Source: Candidatus Gastranaerophilales bacterium
GTDB lineage: Bacteria; Cyanobacteriota; Vampirovibrionia; Gastranaerophilales; Gastranaerophilaceae
NCBI GenBank assembly: GCA_944327225.1
Contig: CALVGZ010000014.1
Coordinates: 1 to 54,497, forward strand
DNA: 54,497 nucleotides
Direction of reading: 5' to 3'
This document shows positions 40,332-53,201 of this stretch, piece after piece. The notes under the pieces were generated by a model that was not told the DNA's origin, searched no databases, and saw only the letters and a program-made list of their open reading frames with translations. The position numbers and the translations under genes were made by a program. Each line of letters opens with the position of its first letter. Within the stretch, counting starts at the first letter, position 1.

Positions 40332-40717
40332 TGGAGATGGCGAGAGTCGAACTCGCGTCCGAAATGATACCGAGGCGATATCTACATTCATAGGCACTTT
40401 TATCTTAAACTATAACCGGAAAATTACCGCAACCAATCAAAGTCCAAAGACAATTTTAAAGATTGCCAACTTCATTTAACTAAAACTTGACGTATGCCGC
40501 CAAATGAAAACATACGCTGTACTTGCATAATTGACCCTACACGCCGGCAAGTTGGGCATATAGAGTGGCTGTCGCTACTATGCAGCGATTGCTCTAGGAG
40601 CAAAATCAGCTTTTACAACGTTATTAGCGTTTATTTTTTTGAAAAGTTTAACGAGTTATTCGGCTCGAAATGCAACCGCAACGATAAACTTCACCCCGTC
40701 GAAACCTTTACATCCCC
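40332..40717 (-). ncRNA. ssrA: Transfer-messenger RNA (tmRNA)
   Basis: A one-piece tmRNA of about 386 nt. The 5' end (40717) reads GGGGATGTAAAGGTTTCGAC and pairs with CATCTCC at the 3' end (40333-40339; discriminator A at 40332); the T-arm GGACGCGAGTTCGACTCTCGCC is intact. CCA is not encoded. The tag frame starts at GCT (40628) and reads ANNVVKADFAPRAIAA then two TAG stops (40575-40580). The ANNxV start and AA end match cyanobacterial-type tags. It rescues stalled ribosomes and tags products for proteolysis. Confidence 0.95.
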
Positions 40718-43044: not shown

Positions 43045-43053
43045 TGGTACCCC
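43045..43053. repeat. attL: left copy of the 9-bp attachment core
   Basis: TGGTACCCC repeats the reverse complement of the tRNA-Glu 3' end (GGGGTACCA) found at 53126-53134. The identical bases stop at position 43053, after four C instead of five. Confidence 0.7.
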
Positions 43054-43189
43054 ATATTGAGAAAAATTCGAAACAAATCGTTCTTGAATTGTACCAATTG
43101 TATGAATTAAGAAATGTTGCTTAGATACTAAAAAATTAAATATGTAAAATAATATATTTTTAATATAATATTTAGTTGAAAGGAATTAA

Positions 43190-43780
43190 ATGAAAAACCG
43201 ATTAAATAATTTAATAAGATGGATTTTATTCTTCATTGCATACTACCCTTTGTTTCTAATATTGCTAATCCAAAATTCAAAACTAATTGATAGGGTTTTT
43301 AGTTGTAATTTTGTTAATTTTAAATTTGTAGAATTGAATGATCCTTTTTTATGGGGAATTAGTCTGGGGTTGATAATTTTTATAACAATTATTATATTCC
43401 TAAAATTTCAAGCAAATACAAACACGATACAGTATAAAGTTTTGTCTGTGAAGGATATTTCTCACGAAACTTTAAATTATATATTAACATATTTAATAGC
43501 CTTTTTGTCTTTAGATATGAATAGTCCTAAAACTATTTTATCTATTATAATATTACTTTTTATAATAGGTGTTATCTACATAAATTCTAATATGCTATAT
43601 GTAAATCCAATATTACAATTATTAGGTTATTCTATATATGAATTAAGTACAACAAGGTATGGCACAAATGAAGAATATAAAATTATCGCAATTTCTGAAA
43701 TTGGAAAGATTAAAAAATGCGAATATGTTGATATATCATTGGTAAATGAAGGTGTTAAAAATATATATTTTGTAAAATAA
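43190..43780 (+). CDS. kwaA: Probable Kiwa membrane protein KwaA
   Basis: A 196-residue protein with about four membrane helices (about 9-28, 52-72, 90-106, 109-130), then a cytoplasmic tail beginning YVNPILQLLGYSIYELSTTR and ending in short beta segments (EYKIIAISEIGKI, YVDISLV). Size, topology, tail and the DUF4868-like gene just downstream fit KwaA, the membrane partner of the two-gene Kiwa antiphage system, which detects phage at the envelope. TATAAT at 43164-43169 and GAAAGGA before the ATG. Family match is from memory of features, so moderately sure. Confidence 0.65.
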   Translation: MKNRLNNLIRWILFFIAYYPLFLILLIQNSKLIDRVFSCNFVNFKFVELNDPFLWGISLGLIIFITIIIFLKFQANTNTIQYKVLSVKDISHETLNYILTYLIAFLSLDMNSPKTILSIIILLFIIGVIYINSNMLYVNPILQLLGYSIYELSTTRYGTNEEYKIIAISEIGKIKKCEYVDISLVNEGVKNIYFVK

Positions 43781-43854
43781 CTTAATAATAAGTTTAAATC
43801 CTTTTTTTATAGTATCATGAGCATGGAAGTTTTAATTATAGAGGAAAAGTTGTA

Positions 43855-44856
43855 TTGCCACATAATTTTTTATCATATGCAAATAGAATAAAAGAAATTG
43901 TTGAAACTGCAAATAGTCAGCAATTAATATTTTTTAAAAGAAAGAAAAGTGGTAGTACTTCAAAATATGAAGCTTATAATTTCGAGTTAGATCAAAACAG
44001 TATTGGTCAAAATCTAAAAAACATTGCAGTTTCAAGTGTTGAAATAAATAGAAGTTGTCAATTAAAAGCCTACACAATAGAACTTGACACAAATGAAAGA
44101 AATACTATATATGAAATTTCTTCAAGTGATGTAGGAAATTTTAGAAAGATTATAGATGCAATGTCAGATAGCTCTCTTAACAGAATAAACGTAGCTACAA
44201 CGGAAGATATTGATCCTAATTTTTATATATTGAATTTTGACAATAATGATGAACAAGTAATGGCATTTACTCATTATTCTCCTGCAACAACATTTAAGGG
44301 AAAATTGATTTTTAAAAACCAAGCTGAGATATATGATAAATGCCTATCAATAGCTACATATGTTCATTGTTTATACTACAGGATAAAATTAGAAGATCAA
44401 CAATATATAGAAAATGTTGTGATTTTTAAAAATGGCAAATCAAAATTTGAACAAATTTTTGACTACAAAGAAGATTATAGGGCTAGGGCAACGGCAACAA
44501 TTAGAGAACTTGAAAATTTGAATTTAATATCTAATGCAGATGCTTTTGAATTAAAAGCAATGACTGATGAATATTTTATAAGAAAATTAGCTAAAATTAA
44601 TCTTGAGAACAAAATAGAAATTGTTAGAAATAATTTTGAAAGTTTAGTAAAAGCAAATAATGATTTTCAAGAATTGGGGGTACAAATAAATACCAATACT
44701 CGAACTATTTTAATACCTCATAATGCAGACAAAAATTATATAAGAAGTGTTTTATCTTTACTTAATACAGAACCAATGCAAAATTTAATATCACAAGCAA
44801 AGGTATTAATACCGGATAACAATACACCCGTTCAACAAAGATTTTTTTTAGCCTAA
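43855..44856 (+). CDS. kwaB: Probable Kiwa effector KwaB (DUF4868-like)
   Basis: A 333-residue soluble protein. The middle has VVIFKNGKSKFEQIFDYKEDYRARATA then REFY-type FIRKLAKIN, the pattern of DUF4868 (V.F.nGk..F...FDf...Y...A...L..L...R.LAK). KwaB works with KwaA and blocks phage DNA functions. The start is a TTG at 43855 with GAGGAA 8 bases upstream; there is no better ATG. It lies 74 bases after kwaA and ends 6 bases from the convergent NACHT gene with no visible terminator. Confidence 0.65.
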   Translation: MPHNFLSYANRIKEIVETANSQQLIFFKRKKSGSTSKYEAYNFELDQNSIGQNLKNIAVSSVEINRSCQLKAYTIELDTNERNTIYEISSSDVGNFRKIIDAMSDSSLNRINVATTEDIDPNFYILNFDNNDEQVMAFTHYSPATTFKGKLIFKNQAEIYDKCLSIATYVHCLYYRIKLEDQQYIENVVIFKNGKSKFEQIFDYKEDYRARATATIRELENLNLISNADAFELKAMTDEYFIRKLAKINLENKIEIVRNNFESLVKANNDFQELGVQINTNTRTILIPHNADKNYIRSVLSLLNTEPMQNLISQAKVLIPDNNTPVQQRFFLA

Positions 44857-44862
44857 ATACAA

Positions 44863-47800
44863 TTATTTAATATAATCTTTTGTATACTTTTCGCATATTA
44901 AATCAATATATGTCTGGATATTAAATTGTTTTTTGTTTTTATATATGTATATTGTTGACCAAAAGAAATTATATAATATAAAAATAACTATTGATGATAT
45001 TAATGTCGTTATAAAAAACTTTTTTGTTAATTTTATAAGACATTTAAAATTTTTTAGAAAACAATTTAGAAGCTCTTTTATAATTTTATTTATTTGAAAA
45101 ATTATTGGGTGATAAATTTTATAGCTATCAATATAGTCCATTTCATAAGCTAAATAACATAATATTGAAGTATAGTTTTCTCTTTTTAATAATTTTAAAA
45201 TCAAATTTTGATTATCTTTTGTTATGTAATTTCTTATAAACCAATTATCAAGATATATAAATCTATGATTAAAATATTTTCGATTTATAGCATTTTCAAT
45301 ATTAACAAATGTATTACCAACAAAGCATATCATTTTTTTTATAGTTTTGTTTTTTAATTTTAATCTAAAAGTATCTATTCTCCAAATTACTGAATTACAG
45401 ATACGACTAATATAAAAGATAAAATGTCTACTCAAAGTGTTTTTTAAAGGTATAGATTTGATTAATTTTATTGAAAATTCTACTAAATCTTCATTATTTG
45501 GGCAATTTAAACAGTTTTGATATAAATCTAATAAGTAATCATTTCTTTTATCTTTTTTATTTTTATCGAGAATTAAATTCATTAAACAATTTTTATACTC
45601 TCTCTTATTTTGATCGTCTATATCAATATAAAATATAGCATATATTATTGATTTGTCGTCAGTATATTGAATTGATTTAAGGAACTCAATGATGGTATCT
45701 TTGAATTGAGTATGTTCCAATGCAATATGCCCTAACCAATTAATACATTCAAAATCATCGACATTATTTTTTATATGCTCTTTTAATATACTAACTGCTT
45801 GTGATATTATTTCTTCTGATTTTGCAATCATGCCTGTAACATAAGCTAAACAAGGTAGATTGTCGTATAGATCATTATCAGCATCGGTTTTTACAGTATT
45901 AAATAATTCAATTATATAATCATTTTCTTTATACTTTGGATGTGCAAGCATACATAAAAGACTTTTTTGTACTTTTATAAATCGATTATCAAATAATATG
46001 ATTTTTATAAATTCTTTTTGTTCTTCTATTGTAAAGCTTTCTAAAGTTTGTCTTAATTCTACGGAAGGAGATATAAAACCATTTTCTATATTTAAAACAA
46101 GTTCATCTAAACAATTATCATTTCTTGTTTCTAAATAAGTTTTTATGCTGATGTTAATTTTATCAAAAAATGATATTGCAATCCCAACTTCTTTTAAAAT
46201 ATCTTCATTTGTTGTTTTATCTCTTAAAAATGATTTCAGTTTACCTGTAAAAATAGATTTATTTTCACCATATTGATTTGCTAATGCTTCATTTTGATAA
46301 AGTTTGTATAATCTATTAACATATTCAGAATTATTAGGAATTATATCAGATAATATATCAATAACTCCTCTGACATACCACCCTTCTCTTTCTTTTTGAT
46401 AGTCATATTTTATAGGATTTTCAATTCTTTCAATAAAAAAATCTATAGTTTTAATATCATCATAAGCACAACTTTTGAAAGCTTTTTGAAATAAATCATA
46501 TGAATATTGTTTATTTCGTTCTTGATATATCTCAAATAAAAGATTTTTAAATTTGATAGTATTATAATTTAAATTCGCCAGTTTATTTATATAGGTTGTA
46601 AATGGAGCTTTTTTATCTCTTTTTCTCCAAGCTTTTTCTAGTCTATTATATAAAAGATTGCATAAACATTTTCTATCTGTATTATAAGTAACATTTGCCA
46701 AATCTAATAAATAAACAGAATCTTTATTTTTCTTATTTTCTTCAATTTCTTTATCATCAGTTAAATTATAATAATCTTTTGTTATATCAATAAATTTGTT
46801 TAATAATTTCTTTTTGTTATTTTTTGCAATATTCTTATACTCTCCTAATATTTCACAACACAACAAAAAAGCTCGTTTTTGATACCATCCGGATGTTTTA
46901 TCTTTAAACTTTAATATTCTATTAAAACATTTTATTTTTTCTTTATCAGAAATGGTCTCTATGCCAAACCAAAATATTATCGTTTGTTTCCAATTGGCTG
47001 AGAAAATATTATATATGTCATTTTTGTAGTCTAAAAAATCATTAACAGTTCCTTTATTAGCGAGAAATAAAGCAGAATAATAATCTTCGAATAATTTGTG
47101 TACAAATTGATAACTATTTCCTATTGGAACTAGAAGCTGTAATTTTAATAATAGTTCACTACTTGGATTTATCTCATTATTGAGTTTTAAATTGTAGGCA
47201 ATACTGCAAAGTTCTTCTAAAAGATGCTTTCTATTTACTTTGTCAATTAATTTTTCATCACATAAAACATCAAAAATTTGTTGTATAAAATCACTTTTTG
47301 AATGAATTGTATTGATACTTTCTGGATTAGATTTATAAATTCTGCACAATAAAGCTAAAAATAATGGAGTTTTTGAAAGTGTGTAGAGATCATCTTTGCT
47401 TTTTATGGCACTATATAATTTATCTGCATTCGGTTTGCCTAAAAAGAACAGTAAATATTCTAAAATCTGTTGAGTGCTAAATGCTTGAATATTTAATAAA
47501 TCAAAATTGTTCAAGTACATTGAACTTGTATTTCTTGAAGCAATTATAATATTAAAGTTTAATTTGTTTCTAAATAATTCATTATTTAAGAGGTTTCGAT
47601 AATTTCCACAATACTCATCTAATCCATCCAATAAAAGATAGAAGTCTTTATTAACAGTATTATTAAGATTATTAGCTTGTATAATAACTTTAGTTTTTAT
47701 ATTGTCAATTTCAAAACCTGTTAAATATTTAATATATTCAAGTAAACCTCTTTGAGCATTTTCTTTTTGCCATAATCCAAAATCTTGTAAAGAGATAAAA

Positions 47801-48078
47801 ATAGGCAATTTATCATTTTGGTATAAATCTTTATATAGCATCTTAAGAAATTGCGATTTTCCTTGTCCACCATTTCCTAGTATTGCCAATTTATTTTGTT
47901 CAGAAGCATTTAGTAACAAGTCTAGTATGTTATTGTAATGAACCGTTTTATTAGTATCATTAACAAATTCTGTTACGATATAAGACTTATCAATTTCTTT
48001 TTCTGAAAAAAAGTCAAAAGATTTATTTTCTATATCTTTTTCAATATATTGTTTGAGATTTGCAATATTTTCATCCAT
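44863..48078 (-). CDS. NACHT/STAND NTPase with C-terminal membrane segment
   Basis: A 1071-residue NLR-like protein. NACHT core: Walker A GNGGQGKS (68-75), Walker B YLLLDGLDE (147-155), sensor IIIASR (177-182), TPLFLALLCRIY and the winged-helix end YQFVHKLFEDYYSALFLA. Then about 650 residues of helical, probably repeat, sensor. A hydrophobic helix lies near 1023-1045 with a short tail. Only about 60 residues precede the NTPase, so there is no recognisable N-terminal effector such as a nuclease or TIR. In bacterial STAND defence proteins the repeats sense a phage product and the NTPase drives assembly; here the membrane segment could be the effector. Specific function is inference. Confidence 0.8.
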   Translation of the reverse strand: MDENIANLKQYIEKDIENKSFDFFSEKEIDKSYIVTEFVNDTNKTVHYNNILDLLLNASEQNKLAILGNGGQGKSQFLKMLYKDLYQNDKLPIFISLQDFGLWQKENAQRGLLEYIKYLTGFEIDNIKTKVIIQANNLNNTVNKDFYLLLDGLDEYCGNYRNLLNNELFRNKLNFNIIIASRNTSSMYLNNFDLLNIQAFSTQQILEYLLFFLGKPNADKLYSAIKSKDDLYTLSKTPLFLALLCRIYKSNPESINTIHSKSDFIQQIFDVLCDEKLIDKVNRKHLLEELCSIAYNLKLNNEINPSSELLLKLQLLVPIGNSYQFVHKLFEDYYSALFLANKGTVNDFLDYKNDIYNIFSANWKQTIIFWFGIETISDKEKIKCFNRILKFKDKTSGWYQKRAFLLCCEILGEYKNIAKNNKKKLLNKFIDITKDYYNLTDDKEIEENKKNKDSVYLLDLANVTYNTDRKCLCNLLYNRLEKAWRKRDKKAPFTTYINKLANLNYNTIKFKNLLFEIYQERNKQYSYDLFQKAFKSCAYDDIKTIDFFIERIENPIKYDYQKEREGWYVRGVIDILSDIIPNNSEYVNRLYKLYQNEALANQYGENKSIFTGKLKSFLRDKTTNEDILKEVGIAISFFDKINISIKTYLETRNDNCLDELVLNIENGFISPSVELRQTLESFTIEEQKEFIKIILFDNRFIKVQKSLLCMLAHPKYKENDYIIELFNTVKTDADNDLYDNLPCLAYVTGMIAKSEEIISQAVSILKEHIKNNVDDFECINWLGHIALEHTQFKDTIIEFLKSIQYTDDKSIIYAIFYIDIDDQNKREYKNCLMNLILDKNKKDKRNDYLLDLYQNCLNCPNNEDLVEFSIKLIKSIPLKNTLSRHFIFYISRICNSVIWRIDTFRLKLKNKTIKKMICFVGNTFVNIENAINRKYFNHRFIYLDNWFIRNYITKDNQNLILKLLKRENYTSILCYLAYEMDYIDSYKIYHPIIFQINKIIKELLNCFLKNFKCLIKLTKKFFITTLISSIVIFILYNFFWSTIYIYKNKKQFNIQTYIDLICEKYTKDYIK

Positions 48079-48155
48079 AAATGAATTATACTTTAAACAA
48101 ACTGTCTATAAAATTATGTTATAATCAAATTAATATTAGTAACAGGCATGAAATA

Positions 48156-48356
48156 ATGAATAAATACTGTCCAAAATGTAGAACTGAAAATCTTGCTATA
48201 GTTAATGCTTCCGAATGGAATAAAAGTGATCCTATTGAACCGACAGAAATAATTATAGATTTTGAATGTATAGAATGTGAAAATAAATATTCTCAAAAAA
48301 TAATTTTTAATTCTTTAAGTAAATATTTAAGCTTTTTGGATGGTTATAAATATTAA
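48156..48356 (+). CDS. Small zinc-ribbon protein
   Basis: From the ATG at 48156 the 66-residue product has two CxxC knuckles: CPKC near the N-terminus and CIEC near residue 42, separated by an acidic stretch. This is a likely structural zinc ribbon. An upstream in-frame ATG (48081) sits 3 bases from the divergent NACHT start and lacks a ribosome site, so the internal ATG is preferred; ACAGG lies upstream of it. Divergent from the NACHT gene and ends overlapping the XRE gene by 4 bases. Role unknown. Confidence 0.6.
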   Translation: MNKYCPKCRTENLAIVNASEWNKSDPIEPTEIIIDFECIECENKYSQKIIFNSLSKYLSFLDGYKY

Positions 48357-48673
48357 TCTATAATCCCGCTCAAAACTTTATAAGCCAGTTTTATTTCCTC
48401 ATCTGTTGCTTTGTTTAGCATTGTTTGGATGTCTTGCAGGAGTTCTTTTGTATCTTTCTGATGATTAAACATATAAAGTTTATAAGGCTCAACATTTAGT
48501 GCTTTAGCAATCTTTTCTAAATTATCATCTGTGGGGTGAAAATGTCCACTTTCTATTTTGCTAATACTAGAAGCACCTATTTCTGTTAATTCAGATAAAT
48601 CCTCTTGAGTTAAATTTCTTGCCACTCTTATTTCTCTAATTCTTTTTCCTAAAAGTTTTTTCAATTCAGACAT
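48353..48673 (-). CDS. XRE-family regulator of the element
   Basis: A 106-residue protein with an N-terminal Cro/C1 helix-turn-helix (LGKRIREIRVARNLTQEDLSELTEIGASSISKIESG) and a short C-terminal helix pair. GAGGTGAAAA precedes the ATG. It is divergent from the membrane-protein gene at 48831 across a 157-base gap that contains a perfect 16-bp palindrome, the expected layout for a self-regulating repressor. Confidence 0.85.
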   Translation of the reverse strand: MSELKKLLGKRIREIRVARNLTQEDLSELTEIGASSISKIESGHFHPTDDNLEKIAKALNVEPYKLYMFNHQKDTKELLQDIQTMLNKATDEEIKLAYKVLSGIID

Positions 48674-48803
48674 TTTTCACCTCACAATATATTTTTTATG
48701 AAATAGTGGTAAAAATGAATTAATCTTAACCGCATAATAAGTTGAATTTCTTTTATCTTTATGTAAGTATATATGCATAGTACAAAATAAAATTAAATAA
48801 AAT

Positions 48804-48819
48804 TTGCATTTAAATGCAA
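48804..48819. promoter_or_regulatory. Perfect 16-bp palindrome, probable operator
   Basis: TTGCATTTAAATGCAA is fully self-complementary and lies just before the AAAGGAAG ribosome site of the 48831 gene. Likely target of the divergent XRE protein; alternatively a small hairpin in the mRNA leader. Confidence 0.5.
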
Positions 48820-48830
48820 GAAAGGAAGTC

Positions 48831-49817
48831 ATGAGTAGATTTAATAATTTCTTATTATGGGTATTTATTAGCTTTTCTTTTATTCTTTCATTAGCTCTTA
48901 TGTCAGATGAAAACAGTATTTTATTAGGTCAATATTTTTTTGTTTTAGGATTATGTTTAATTCCTAAAATAAAAAAATTAATTAATAACAAAATAGCCGA
49001 AATTCTGTCAGTTTTGGATAAAAATAATAATAGCGAAAAGTCAATCACAAAAGGACTAGAAAAGAAAATTGGCATTATAAAATTTACTGTCTTTTTTATG
49101 GCATTCATATTTATTGTAGCAAGTTTACCTCAACAAGAAAATTCCAATATCACTCAAAATAACGCAACTCAAAATCAAGAAATAACGCAAAATAAATACA
49201 TTGATAATAAAAATACTAAGAAAATATCTAAGGCTTTGAATATTAATAGGATGGAAGCAAGTAATATATATGAAATTCTTCTTAATTGTGGAGTTGATAA
49301 AATACATTGGATTGAAAAAATAGAAGATATAGAAAATGCGTATTTTATACATTTAGAAAATATCATTGAACCATTAAAAATAAGCCTAAAAGATAATAAA
49401 TTGGAACATGTATTTTATGATACTTGGAGTTTATACGATAACGGAAAATATGATGGCAATTTGTCTGATTACAGTATAACTCTTGATGAAAAATTTGCTT
49501 TAAAAAGACTTAGTAAAGAAAATATAAATATCAATTTAAAATATCCTCAAAATTCTAAGTATAATGAAAATAGTTGGAATATAACAAAAATGGATAATGA
49601 ATACGCTGTTTCTTGTAGTGTTGATGCTCCCAATACGTTTGGTATGCTTGTTACGCATCAATTCTTTTTAACATACAAAAAAGAGAATGAAAAATTTATT
49701 CTAACGTCAATGAAATCTGATGAGAATAATATAATTAAAACTAAACAAATTCAGTCAAAAATAACTCCAGAAGATAAAAAAAGCATTAAAGAACTAAATA
49801 AAGCTTTGGGATTATAG
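48831..49817 (+). CDS. Membrane-anchored protein, unknown
   Basis: From the ATG at 48831 (AAAGGAAG at 48821-48828) a 328-residue protein with two helices near the N-terminus (about 6-23 and 28-44) and a third near 83-100, then an Asn/Gln-rich linker (ENSNITQNNATQNQ) and a polar domain of about 200 residues. Within that domain, KISKALNINRMEASNIYEILLNCGVDKIHWIEKI looks like a small helical module repeated in style at the C-terminus (KKSIKELNKALGL). No family recognised. Probably controlled by the XRE regulator. Confidence 0.6.
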   Translation: MSRFNNFLLWVFISFSFILSLALMSDENSILLGQYFFVLGLCLIPKIKKLINNKIAEILSVLDKNNNSEKSITKGLEKKIGIIKFTVFFMAFIFIVASLPQQENSNITQNNATQNQEITQNKYIDNKNTKKISKALNINRMEASNIYEILLNCGVDKIHWIEKIEDIENAYFIHLENIIEPLKISLKDNKLEHVFYDTWSLYDNGKYDGNLSDYSITLDEKFALKRLSKENININLKYPQNSKYNENSWNITKMDNEYAVSCSVDAPNTFGMLVTHQFFLTYKKENEKFILTSMKSDENNIIKTKQIQSKITPEDKKSIKELNKALGL

Positions 49818-49869
49818 CAAAAAGCACAATTTTAGAAAAATTAGTATAATAGCCATAGGAGATAATCTT

Positions 49870-50406
49870 ATGGCTACTTTAAAACAGCAAAAAGCAAACA
49901 AATTAAATTCTTTAAAAGGTGGAGTAAAAACTCATGCCGGAAAAGAAGTTAGCAAAATGAATGCTTTAAAATATGGATTTTTCAGTAAAATAGTTACGCA
50001 GTTTGACAAACTAGATAATTCTGATTTCTGTAATGAAATTTATAACTGTTTTAATCCCATTAATGAATATGAAAAACAATTAGTTGAAATTTTACTATCA
50101 AATCTATTAACATTTAGAAGAATTTGTTTTATCGAAAAAGAGTTTATTGAAACAAAACTAAATCCAGATGTAAAAATGGACTTTGAAGTTTGTATAAAAG
50201 AAGGATATAAACCTGTTATAGAGTTAAATTTACTTGATGATTTGAACAAATTTCAAAAATACAAAACAAGTATTCAAAATAATATTATAAAAATACAGCA
50301 TGAATTAGAAAGACTTATTAATAATAGATACACTACTGATAAAATAATACCAAATTCAGTAGATATAAATGTTTTAACTACAAATGGGTTCGTTTTGGAA
50401 AATTGA
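49870..50406 (+). CDS. Element protein with 'NALKxG' N-terminal motif, unknown
   Basis: A 178-residue protein. The start KQQKANKLNSLKGGVKTHAGKEVSKMNALKYGFFS matches a motif (A-N..N..K..G.KT..GK..S..NALK.G) recurrent in small proteins of phages and integrative elements; function not known. The rest is helical. TATAAT at 49845-49850 and TAGGAGA before the ATG. Confidence 0.6.
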   Translation: MATLKQQKANKLNSLKGGVKTHAGKEVSKMNALKYGFFSKIVTQFDKLDNSDFCNEIYNCFNPINEYEKQLVEILLSNLLTFRRICFIEKEFIETKLNPDVKMDFEVCIKEGYKPVIELNLLDDLNKFQKYKTSIQNNIIKIQHELERLINNRYTTDKIIPNSVDINVLTTNGFVLEN

Positions 50407-50420
50407 TTTACATTTCTTAA

Positions 50421-50478
50421 ATTATACTTGTATGTATAATTTTAATGCACTATAATAAATTATACATTGAGGTATAAT
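50421..50478 (+). promoter_or_regulatory. Promoter with two operator-like dyads
   Basis: Two copies of the inverted repeat ATTATAC-N6-GTATAAT, at 50421-50440 and 50459-50478, start 38 bases apart. A TTGTAT box (50428-50433) lies in the centre of the first and TATAAT (50451-50456) 17 bases on; the second dyad covers the expected start of transcription and abuts the ATG at 50481. Typical of autoregulation by the MerR-like product. Confidence 0.65.
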
Positions 50479-50480
50479 TT

Positions 50481-51431
50481 ATGAGTAATGAAATTGAAAA
50501 AGAAAGCTTTAATCCTAAGTTTTTAAAAATAAAAGATTATAAAACTGTAGAAGAATATAAAAATGATTTTTTTGTAAAAAATATTGTTGATACTACTGAA
50601 TATTATGAATTAGCTATATTAAATTCTTATTTTATTTATCCATTTTTATCGTTAAAATCTATCTCACAGGCATCTCAAGAATTATATGGTTCAGATAAAT
50701 TAGAAATAACTTATCGAAAAGTAAATGATTGGGGTTCTAAGGGTTTATTTGAAGATAATAGGACAAGTAGTATTCAATGGCGAAAATACTCTGTAAATAC
50801 AGGCATAAAATTGCTAATAATAAACGATTTAAAAAAGTTTGGCTATTCAAATGAACAAATAAAATACATCTTAGCTCAAATATGTGAAGATAGTTGTAGT
50901 GTACTTGTAAGAAACAAAAAATTTAATTATAAATACTTTGATTTTTATGCATCAACATTTTATAAAACTGGTATAAATTTTTTAATAATGATTGATAATG
51001 ATTGCAACGCATTTTATTTAACTGAAAAAGATTTAGCATTAAATATTACAGATAGTTTAGATATTTCTAAGCCACATTTAATATTGCCATTTTCAAAATA
51101 TTTACAGGTTTTTGCTAAATATATATTTAATCGTGAAAATGAAGGTGTAATCACAAAGTCCATTTCATTATCAGAGGAACTACCAAACGGTAATGAAAAA
51201 TATCTTATTGAGCAATTTCGCAATAATGAAAATGAAGAAATACACATAAAAAATAAGAAATCAGATAATTCAAAAATCGTTAAAACAAAGAAAACAATTA
51301 ATAATATAAAATTATCTGATAAAGAATTTGTAAATCTTTGTAAGAAAGATAAACATAAGAAAATAACTTCAACTGTTAAAGATAATGGAAATTACGATAT
51401 AACAATTGAAGAAACCGAAAAATTAAGATAG
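50481..51431 (+). CDS. MerR-like DNA-binding protein of the element
   Basis: A 316-residue protein whose residues about 55-130 resemble a MerR-type winged helix: SISQASQELYGS, VNDWGSKGLFEDNR, WRKYSVNTGIKLLIINDLKKFGYSNEQIKYIL, matching the W...GL...R...WR.Y......L..I..L...G.s...IK.IL pattern. The C-terminal half is lysine-rich and unfamiliar. Two identical dyads in its promoter suggest autoregulation. Position just upstream of the recombinase suggests a control or excision role (inference). Confidence 0.6.
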   Translation: MSNEIEKESFNPKFLKIKDYKTVEEYKNDFFVKNIVDTTEYYELAILNSYFIYPFLSLKSISQASQELYGSDKLEITYRKVNDWGSKGLFEDNRTSSIQWRKYSVNTGIKLLIINDLKKFGYSNEQIKYILAQICEDSCSVLVRNKKFNYKYFDFYASTFYKTGINFLIMIDNDCNAFYLTEKDLALNITDSLDISKPHLILPFSKYLQVFAKYIFNRENEGVITKSISLSEELPNGNEKYLIEQFRNNENEEIHIKNKKSDNSKIVKTKKTINNIKLSDKEFVNLCKKDKHKKITSTVKDNGNYDITIEETEKLR

Positions 51432-51505
51432 TGGCAATAAGGCACATTGAACTATTTTAATAGTTACAACTAAATATTTTAAGGTGGCAATGAGGTAAAT
51501 TGAGC
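51431..51505. repeat. Pair of 22-bp direct repeats
   Basis: GTGGCAATAAGGCACATTGA-AC (51431-51452) and GTGGCAATGAGGTAAATTGA-GC (51484-51505) match at 18 of 22 positions and start 53 bases (about five helical turns) apart. Candidate binding sites for a regulator or accessory recombination factor upstream of the 47-codon gene and recombinase. Confidence 0.55.
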
Positions 51506-51532
51506 CTTAATACAAGCAATAAGGATCAAAAA

Positions 51533-51676
51533 ATGCTTAGTATTGAGGTTTGCCGTAAAATTTTAGGTGTTAATGAAAGTGAAGTATCAAATGAAGAACT
51601 GGAAAATATTAGATATAGCCTTTACCAAATTTCGCAAGTGCTAATTAATCAATATCTTGAGGAAAAAACATTATGA
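51533..51676 (+). CDS. 47-residue protein coupled to the recombinase
   Basis: ATG at 51533 with AAGGAT 6 bases upstream; 47 codons ending in TGA that overlaps the recombinase ATG as ATGA (51673-51676). The product (MLSIEVCRKILGVNE... then NIRYSLYQISQVLINQYLEE) looks like two helices. Similar short frames often sit before large serine recombinases; it may help control integration or excision. That role is inference. Confidence 0.7.
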   Translation: MLSIEVCRKILGVNESEVSNEELENIRYSLYQISQVLINQYLEEKTL

Positions 51677-53166
51677 ATGCAGTTATTTATACAAGAGTAT
51701 CTACAACAGAACAAGCTAAACACGGATATAGTTTGGCAAGCCAAGAATTAGAATGTAAAAAGTTTGCTGAAAAAGAAGGCATGAAGGTTGTTAAAATATA
51801 CAGAGAAGAAGGTGTTAGTGCAAAAACAACTAATAGACCACAATTGCAAAACTTAATTAAATTTTGTATAGAGAATAAAAAATCAATCAATTGTATAATT
51901 GTTTGGAAATTTGATAGATTTACCAGAAAATTAGAAGACCAAATTGAGTTATTTGGGAAAATGCAAAAATATAATATAAGAATTTTATCAGCAACCGAAA
52001 ACAACGAAGAAAGTGCTATTGGTAATTTGGTAAGAAATGTAATTGGTACATTTGCTCAATTTGAAAATGATATTAAATCAGAAAGAGTTACAGCCGGCAT
52101 GAAAGAGGCTTTTTTGCAAGGTAATTGGCTTTGGAAAGCTCCTATTGGCTACAAAATGATAGGTAAAAAATTGTATATTGATGAAATAAAAGGCTCACAT
52201 ATCAAAAAGATTTTTGAAGATTTTGCTACTGGACTTTACAGACAAACAGATTTATTAAACTACTTAAAAGACAATAATATTAAAATAAGTGCAAATACAT
52301 TATGCGATTTATTAAGAAAACCTGTTTATTATGGATATTTAGTAAATGAAAAATATTCAAAAGAACCTATAAAAGGAGATTTTGAACCAATTGTTGATGA
52401 ACAAACTTTTTATAGGGTTCAAGCTATTCTAAATGGCAATAAGGCTCAAGCAGTACCACATTTAAGACAAAATCCTATGTTTCCGTTAAAACAATTTATT
52501 ACATGTCCTTATTGCAATCAATCGCTAACAGGAGATACTCCACATGGAAGGAAAGGTCAAAAGTATTATTACTATAGATGTTATAACAAAGATTGTATAG
52601 CTCATTTTAATATTTCTAAAGACAAATTGGAAAATAATTTTGTAGAATATTTAACAAAAATAAAACCAGATAAATCGTTATTAAAGTTGTTTAAAACTAT
52701 CATGAATGATGTATACAATAAAAGCACAGAAGAAGCTAGAAATAGCTATAATAGTTTTAATAAACAATTAGAAGGTATAAATAACAATAAAAGTAAATTG
52801 CTTGATTTATTAATTGAAGAAAAAATTTCTAGTGATGCTTATAAGATGAAAGTTGAACAATTTGAAAAAGCAGAATTAGACTTAAAATCTAAAATTGCAG
52901 TAAATGATATACCAGAAAATGATTTTAATGAATGCCTAGAATATGCCTGTAATGTTTTAGATAATCTAGATAAGTTTTGGCTTAATAGCAAAATTGATAT
53001 TAAAGAAAGATTGCAAAAAATAATATTTCCAAATGGATTAAGATACGAAAGTGGAGTTTTTCGAAACAGCCAAATGTCAAGCCTATTCAAAATAATAGGC
53101 ACCTTATCGGTGCCTTCTATTAATATGGTACCCCCAAGCGAATTCGAATCGCTGTCTACACCGTGA
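51673..53166 (+). CDS. Large serine recombinase (site-specific integrase)
   Basis: A 497-residue integrase. Catalytic domain 1-140 with Ser10 in YTRVSTTEQ and the KFDRFTR segment; recombinase domain about 150-260 (APIGYKM...LRKPVYYGYLVNEKY); zinc ribbon with C278, C281, C303, C308; coiled coil about 330-400; then a helical end with IIFPNGLRYESGVFRNS. The last 13 residues (MVPPSEFESLSTP) are read from tRNA-Glu antisense across attR, so they come from the host, not the element. It would integrate and, with a helper, excise this element. Confidence 0.93.
   Translation: MNAVIYTRVSTTEQAKHGYSLASQELECKKFAEKEGMKVVKIYREEGVSAKTTNRPQLQNLIKFCIENKKSINCIIVWKFDRFTRKLEDQIELFGKMQKYNIRILSATENNEESAIGNLVRNVIGTFAQFENDIKSERVTAGMKEAFLQGNWLWKAPIGYKMIGKKLYIDEIKGSHIKKIFEDFATGLYRQTDLLNYLKDNNIKISANTLCDLLRKPVYYGYLVNEKYSKEPIKGDFEPIVDEQTFYRVQAILNGNKAQAVPHLRQNPMFPLKQFITCPYCNQSLTGDTPHGRKGQKYYYYRCYNKDCIAHFNISKDKLENNFVEYLTKIKPDKSLLKLFKTIMNDVYNKSTEEARNSYNSFNKQLEGINNNKSKLLDLLIEEKISSDAYKMKVEQFEKAELDLKSKIAVNDIPENDFNECLEYACNVLDNLDKFWLNSKIDIKERLQKIIFPNGLRYESGVFRNSQMSSLFKIIGTLSVPSINMVPPSEFESLSTP
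53081..53114 (+). other. Two overlapping hairpins before attR
   Basis: GCCTATT-CAAAAT-AATAGGC (53081-53100) and GGCACC-TTATC-GGTGCC (53098-53114) share three bases, so only one can form fully at a time. They lie in the recombinase 3' coding end, 12 bases from the attachment core. They may be arms of the att site or a weak terminator; no T-run follows. Confidence 0.4.
53126..53134. repeat. attR: right copy of the attachment core in tRNA-Glu
   Basis: TGGTACCCC at the tRNA 3' end, direct repeat of 43045-43053. Confidence 0.7.
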
Positions 53167-53201
53167 AAGGGTGTTGTCCTAGGCCTCTAGACGATGGGGG
53201 C
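53126..53201 (-). tRNA. tRNA-Glu(TTC), attachment site of the element
   Basis: On the minus strand: acceptor GCCCCCA/TGGGGGT, D-arm with AGAGGCCTAGGAC, anticodon arm ACACC-CTTTCAC-GGTGT with anticodon TTC, T-arm AGCGA-TTCGAAT-TCGCT, encoded CCA at 53128-53126. The structure is intact because the element supplies or keeps the 3' end. It follows the 199-residue gene (stop at 53209) by 7 bases on the same strand and may be processed from that transcript. Confidence 0.95.

Follow-up and report, generated by a model that had tools for sequence, protein, structure and literature searches.

The locus analysed here raises the question of what two identical inverted repeats do in front of the gene for a MerR-like protein, and which genes they could serve. 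It lies in a 54,497-nt stretch of Gastranaerophilales DNA (the window; G+C 27%), for which an earlier note had proposed cooperative autoregulation and perhaps a switch for the excision of a mobile element.

Twin dyads upstream of a MerR-type gene

The motif ATTATAC-N6-GTATAAT is present without mismatch at 50421-50440 and 50459-50478, with a start-to-start distance of 38 bp, exactly as previously claimed; both dyads turned out to be longer than that claim, extending to 9-bp arms. The features of this region are as follows:

50419..50442, + strand: putative operator O1, AAATTATAC-N6-GTATAATTT; the predicted -35 hexamer, TTGTAT, forms its 6-bp centre
50428..50456, + strand: predicted promoter, -35 TTGTAT (50428-50433), 17-bp spacer, -10 TATAAT (50451-50456)
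50457..50480, + strand: putative operator O2, AAATTATAC-N6-GTATAATTT; spans the predicted transcription start
50481..51431, + strand: MerR-type regulator, 316 aa; winged helix at about residues 58-133, CvkR-like region to about residue 219
about residues 250-316 of the regulator: C-terminal domain, beta-beta-alpha-beta-beta in the predicted model

The 3' end of O2 (50480) immediately precedes the ATG at 50481, in agreement with the description of one dyad as adjoining the start codon, and the O2 centre holds the GAGG of the ribosome site (this site and the transcription start are predictions from the DNA sequence). A pair of identical 7-6-7 dyads at most 100 bp apart occurs once in the window, and such a pair was found in one of 200 dinucleotide shuffles. 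If the spacer is freed to 0-12, the window contains 3 pairs and one of 60 shuffles contains a pair; since the arms are 9 bp long, the 3 pairs probably represent one pair in three registers.

The scan of the window for additional dyads with 1 or 2 mismatches identified none, and with up to 3 mismatches the number of matches (21, vs 14.7 +/- 3.8 in shuffles) is near chance. In the 1.73-Mb genome the two exact dyads are the only ones, and 5 places with one mismatch compare with 3 for a reversed control pattern. Hence the search of the element and the chromosome for further copies, suggested in the earlier note, returned no other exact copy and none clearly over the chance level. Sites with 2 mismatches were found additionally in 6 of the 18 related loci described below, at inconsistent positions, and are not counted as real.

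The regulator: domains and predicted fold

The gene product had been called MerR-like, and the Pfam search confirmed the presence of the MerR_1 domain (PF13411; 26.4 bits, cut-off 21.6). Its membership in the MerR superfamily is based on the winged helix, as indicated by PF13411, by the matches to GlnR and MtaN and by the structure model. The winged helix is also the best-conserved part of the protein, with 35-44% identity between distant members and the window's sequence, compared to 14-24% for the N-terminus and the middle. The model (built from 17 sequences, pLDDT 77.6) has CvkR as its top structural match (Z 9.4, rmsd 3.5, 138 residues, model positions 53-219), a Z-score that barely exceeds the middling range against which the structure-comparison tool cautions, followed by TnrA and GlnR, aligned along the winged helix (Z 6.6-6.1). 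Foldseek alone reported nothing at E <= 0.001, while the sequence-profile search placed GlnR nearest (E 3e-4) and CvkR at a non-significant E of 2.0. Past the winged helix the model contains short helices and strands (a prediction only); classical MerR activators dimerise via an antiparallel coiled coil. We read the protein as a putative MerR-type repressor with a CvkR-like fold. Its C-terminal pieces have no Pfam match above the cut-off, and this domain occurs in two types: type A, found in the window, showed only weak structural matches, to unrelated proteins, and type B, found in 3 of the 18 loci (L057, L061 and L062), yielded a poor model (pLDDT 55) with no structural match above Z 4.3.

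The integrase operon and its mobile element

Downstream of the regulator gene come a small ORF and then the gene for a large serine integrase, an order found in 18/18 loci, and the operon resides on a genomic island:

43046..53127: genomic island, 10,081 bp, between two copies of GGTACCCC
43190-43780: KwaA relative, Kiwa defence pair with KwaB
43855-44856: KwaB relative, Kiwa defence pair with KwaA
44863-48078, - strand: NACHT-type protein, 1071 aa, possible defence role
48353-48673: XRE gene, within the element
51533..51676, + strand: 47-aa ORF (start ATG 51533), adjoins the integrase gene in all 18 loci
51673..53166, + strand: large serine integrase, 497 aa; last codons from the tRNA-Glu gene
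53126-53201, - strand: tRNA-Glu, holds the right end of the island

The extent of the island (10,081 bp) follows from the positions of the core GGTACCCC, 43046 and 53127. The left end, at about 43044, is common to the window and the loci L046 and L050 (3 genomes), and an empty attachment site bordered by the same genes was found in locus L109 (genome G190), where the left-flank genes run straight into tRNA-Glu. The named genes of the element are Kiwa-like, NACHT, XRE and serine integrase; PADLOC gave no match for the 1071-aa NACHT-type protein. Outside the island there is a tmRNA gene (40332-40717, - strand) with the tag ATATLYAQLAGV. A role of the dyads as attachment sites or accessory sites of the integrase was considered and rejected, as the ends of the element (43046 and 53127) are at least 2.6 kb away.

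The integrase comprises resolvase catalytic, recombinase and zinc-ribbon domains (PF00239, PF07508, PF13408; phrog_95). The tRNA-Glu gene in which the element sits supplies its final codons, and therefore its C-terminus changes on integration; a protein read through the joined ends would finish ...NMVPHIEKNSKQIVLELYQLYELRNVA rather than ...NMVPPSEFESLSTP. The 47-aa ORF is a candidate directionality factor or integrase partner. No terminator-like sites were found in 50300-51700.

Conservation of the dyads and co-occurrence with the regulator

In a protein search of 383 genomes of the order, relatives of the regulator were found in 17 genomes (18 loci, the window's own locus included), with identities from 100% down to about 23% over the alignment. 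The twin-site pattern, run independently of the protein, identified the same 17 of the 383 genomes and the same 18 loci, while the reversed control pattern gave 1 match in the 383 genomes. As the pattern was drawn from these 18 loci, the matches there are expected, and the informative part is that the remainder of the 383 genomes contains none. Both dyads are located upstream of the regulator's ATG in 18/18 loci, with 12-14 of the 14 arm bases retained in each, at a start-to-start distance of 38 bp in 6 loci with close proteins and 39 bp in 12 loci with distant ones. The earlier note had made its reading depend on the conservation of the half-sites in related elements, and this is what all 18 loci exhibit.

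The 18 loci all belong to a single bacterial family, and near copies among them reduce the set to 14 distinct promoters, in which the mean majority fraction is 0.96 for the arms of O1 and 0.94 for those of O2. The corresponding value for the spacer is 0.89 in O1, where the TTG of the -35 box is invariant, and 0.68 in O2, with 0.59-0.76 in other stretches. The arms contain TATAAT, so part of their conservation could stem from RNA polymerase. O2 is kept even in the 8/18 loci where it ends 19-20 bp upstream of the ATG, and in the loci with short leaders its centre carries a GAGG-like ribosome site.

No relatives outside the family were detected at E <= 1e-8 in 382 genomes of the class, and 194 genomes of the phylum added one weak match, a MerR protein in G527, whose surroundings contain no dyads and no relatives of the element's genes (the class and phylum samples overlap with the order sample). 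Relatives of the regulator are absent from the viral contigs, plasmids and phages searched; ten viral contigs match the twin pattern, and none of the ten encodes relatives of the element's proteins.

The one-to-one link between sites and protein is also apparent in a mosaic locus. In L050 the upstream gene is that of the window (177/178 aa aligned, 100% identity) and the cargo (93-100%) and the integrase (90%) are close to the window's, while the regulator is only 59% identical and, together with the operator, is of the L049 type. Conversely, L047 and L048 have regulators 94-97% identical to the window's and integrases 41% identical. Judging from these comparisons, integrase and regulator can differ in history, and the operator type goes with the regulator.

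We therefore consider it likely that O1 and O2 are operators of the adjacent protein, which would repress its own integrase operon; autoregulation by this protein, as put forward in the earlier note, is well supported by the comparison, with the sites present in 18/18 loci. It is improbable that the dyads are bound by another protein, for instance a host factor or an XRE-type repressor encoded by the element: relatives of the XRE gene do occur near the module in 17/18 loci, but in the distant loci they vary in kind, strand and distance (29-44% identical to the window's) while the sites hardly vary, none of the 383 genomes has the twin pattern without the MerR-like gene, and in the mosaic L050 operator and regulator are of one type.

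Promoter geometry

A TTG-led -35 box inside the centre of O1, followed after 17 bp by a -10 box, can be placed in a single register in 14/14 distinct promoters, with a gap of 2 or 3 bp between the -10 box and O2. The TG that marks an extended -10 is present in each of the 9 promoters whose -10 box is weaker and in none of the 5 with TATAAT or TATGAT. The -35 hexamer TTGTAT is weak, agreeing with TTGACA at only 3/6 positions, and a generic promoter scan did not list the predicted promoter (it listed 10 promoters vs 12.2 in shuffles, i.e. no excess). The conserved register nevertheless supports the promoter, and its placement between and within the dyads is plausible; accordingly, the earlier assignment of the dyads to the -35 region and the transcript start holds as to the positions, with a predicted promoter whose -35 box is weak.

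The same register explains the 38/39-bp spacing without cooperativity. The DNA helix has 10.5 bp per turn, and the dyad centres, 38-39 bp apart, are separated by 3.6-3.7 turns, so that two dimers would face different sides of the DNA. The cooperative binding suggested in the earlier note thus finds no support, as the sites are off-phase and their spacing follows from the geometry of the promoter.

The geometry also bears on the direction of control. The MerR_1 domain could suggest an activator of the classical MerR kind, but activation of the promoter by the adjacent protein is quite unlikely given the 17-bp spacer and dyads centred on the -35 box and just past the predicted start. Still less probable is that O2 works at the RNA level, folding into a hairpin that covers the ribosome site, and not as a DNA operator. 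O2 adjoins the ATG, and its centre has the GAGG-like ribosome site in short-leader loci; however, most of the left arm of O2 would be missing from the RNA, given a predicted transcription start inside that arm, O2 is maintained in the 8/18 loci where the ATG is 19-20 bp away, and O1 has identical arms yet sits outside the transcript. Finally, that the dyads reflect chance or just AT-rich promoter hexamers is hardly credible, since GTATAAT does resemble a -10 word in a window of 27% G+C, but the pair is conserved even in distant relatives, co-occurs with the protein and arises in only 1/200 shuffles.

Proposed control of the integrase

According to the repression model, a dimer with MerR-type winged helices would bind each dyad through the TATAC/GTATA arms. 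With O1 over the -35 box and O2 over the transcription start, occupancy would shut out RNA polymerase, and the regulator would repress its own operon, i.e. the regulator gene, the 47-aa gene and the serine integrase gene, all presumably read from the predicted promoter. In a settled element the integrase would be kept scarce, while entry into a new cell, a drop in the repressor or its inactivation would switch the operon on and allow integrase to be made. The regulator thus probably has a hold on the integrase via the twin sites. The excision switch imagined in the earlier note is plausible, with indirect evidence: it gains from the identity of the operon's third gene, a serine integrase in 18/18 loci. 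It is better described as control of integrase supply, because sites that lead an operon with the integrase would control that supply for integration as well as for excision.

RNA hairpins in the leader of the 47-aa gene

The region between the end of the regulator gene and the 47-aa ORF contains three predicted RNA hairpins:

51422..51461, + strand: H1, overlaps the regulator's stop codon
51479..51510, + strand: H2, its 3' arm is common with H3, the two being mutually exclusive
51505..51548, + strand: H3, with the 47-aa gene's ribosome site and start codon inside it

H3 is paired in 126/126 cells of the alignment, 5 of them with a double change, and has a covariation score of 0.232 (0.145 +/- 0.022 in shuffles, at most 0.109 when slid); neither the number of paired cells nor the score was reached by any of 500 shuffles, while its doubly changed pairs (2) show no excess (100/500 shuffles reach this number). 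In the 383 genomes the H3 pattern matched the same 17 genomes and 18 loci. For H1 and H2 the register was chosen for best pairing and rows repeating another's hairpin core were excluded, which left 11/14 and 8/14 distinct leaders, respectively. H1 is paired in 104/110 cells (72.8 in shuffles) and H2 in 73/80 (65.4 in shuffles), values reached in 0/2000 shuffles for either hairpin; one H1 pair is broken in L060. The doubly changed columns of H1 (8/10) are not above shuffles (408/2000 reach this number), and those of H2 (5/10) exceed them only moderately (48/2000). RNAalifold, applied to the whole alignment, predicted H3 and not H1 or H2, and Rfam gave no credible match, only a spurious snoRNA on the opposite strand below the gathering score.

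Compared in 60-bp blocks, the loci L058 and L062 have identities of 97-100% between -160 and about +620 relative to the regulator's ATG; between +980 and +1280 the identity is 98-100%. From +620 to about +940 it is 25-75% in 20-bp blocks, and this divergent stretch corresponds to the C-terminal domain of the regulator together with the hairpins, as far as the 3' arm of H2. Moreover, the loci with the type B domain have one kind of loop, CNGA-ARCCM-TCNG, while the other loci have mostly purine-rich loops. On account of this joint exchange, and of two domain types matching two loop kinds, one may speculate that the regulator is a two-level controller, with the winged helix reading the DNA operators and the C-terminal domain reading H1/H2 in the RNA. 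We regard this as a doubtful, though conceivable, scenario, and adjacency alone could account for the joint exchange, so that the pairing of domain and hairpins is a hypothesis. In such a scheme the competitor of H2 would be H3, in which the 47-aa gene's start codon and ribosome site are hidden, and binding of the protein to the hairpins would set the H2/H3 balance. If the C-terminal domain does bind the hairpins, the regulator would be an unusual case among MerR-type proteins, with RNA as well as DNA as its target; a literature search for MerR-type proteins with RNA-binding activity, itself a weak search, found nothing pertinent.

The regulator with its two putative operators, the leader RNA, the 47-aa gene and the integrase form one module, which may represent a compact circuit by which large serine integrases are controlled in Gastranaerophilales. 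A literature search found no paper on this circuit. Its parts could serve users of serine integrases as tools.

Comparison with known systems

Classical MerR activators (MerR, SoxR, CueR, BmrR) use a single dyad within an over-long 19-20-bp spacer between the -35 and -10 boxes. The present promoter differs in its spacer of 17 bp and in having dyads centred on the -35 box and past the predicted start.

Among integrases, IntS reportedly acts at its own promoter. The integrase gene intS of KplE1 is under tight control, according to the part of the study used here (PMC2951348), while in our case the presumed repressor is a separate MerR-type protein of the same operon and the integrase is a serine integrase.

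GlnR of Bacilli, the best profile match, is an autorepressor of glnRA (PMC3412718, PMC9249791), with two promoter sites in many Bacillus (PMC3412718), as far as the portions of these papers drawn upon here go. The similarity to GlnR and TnrA consists in the MerR-type winged helix (E 3e-4) and, for GlnR, in an operon that begins with the regulator gene and is repressed by its product, with two sites in the promoter. The differences concern the operator (TGTNA-N7-TNACA, not found here), the position of one GlnR site upstream of the -35 box, the control through glutamine synthetase, and the targets, which are nitrogen genes instead of a mobile element. The C-terminal tail of GlnR and TnrA binds glutamine synthetase; the C-terminus of the present regulator is predicted to be a folded domain.

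The type V-K CAST transposons of cyanobacteria have a MerR-type repressor, CvkR (Alr3614); in the sections of its description considered here it represses cas12k and tnsB via the 15-nt motif AnnACATnATGTnnT and is reported not to bind its own core promoter (PMC9938897). The dyads do not match that motif; they are two, of 20-24 bp, and occupy the promoter of the regulator itself, which has an additional C-terminal domain and is paired with a recombinase of the serine integrase kind. Members of the CvkR subfamily lie next to cas12k in a CAST transposon; the named genes of the present element are those given above. In CvkR the winged helix precedes a beta-strand dimerisation domain, an arrangement that the regulator model may share (Z 9.4, rmsd 3.5, 138 residues, model residues 53-219; sequence E 2.0). 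To the extent that the account of CvkR covers these points, both systems have palindromes in promoters and a regulator gene carried by a mobile element, whose own machinery is the target, or here the probable target, of control.
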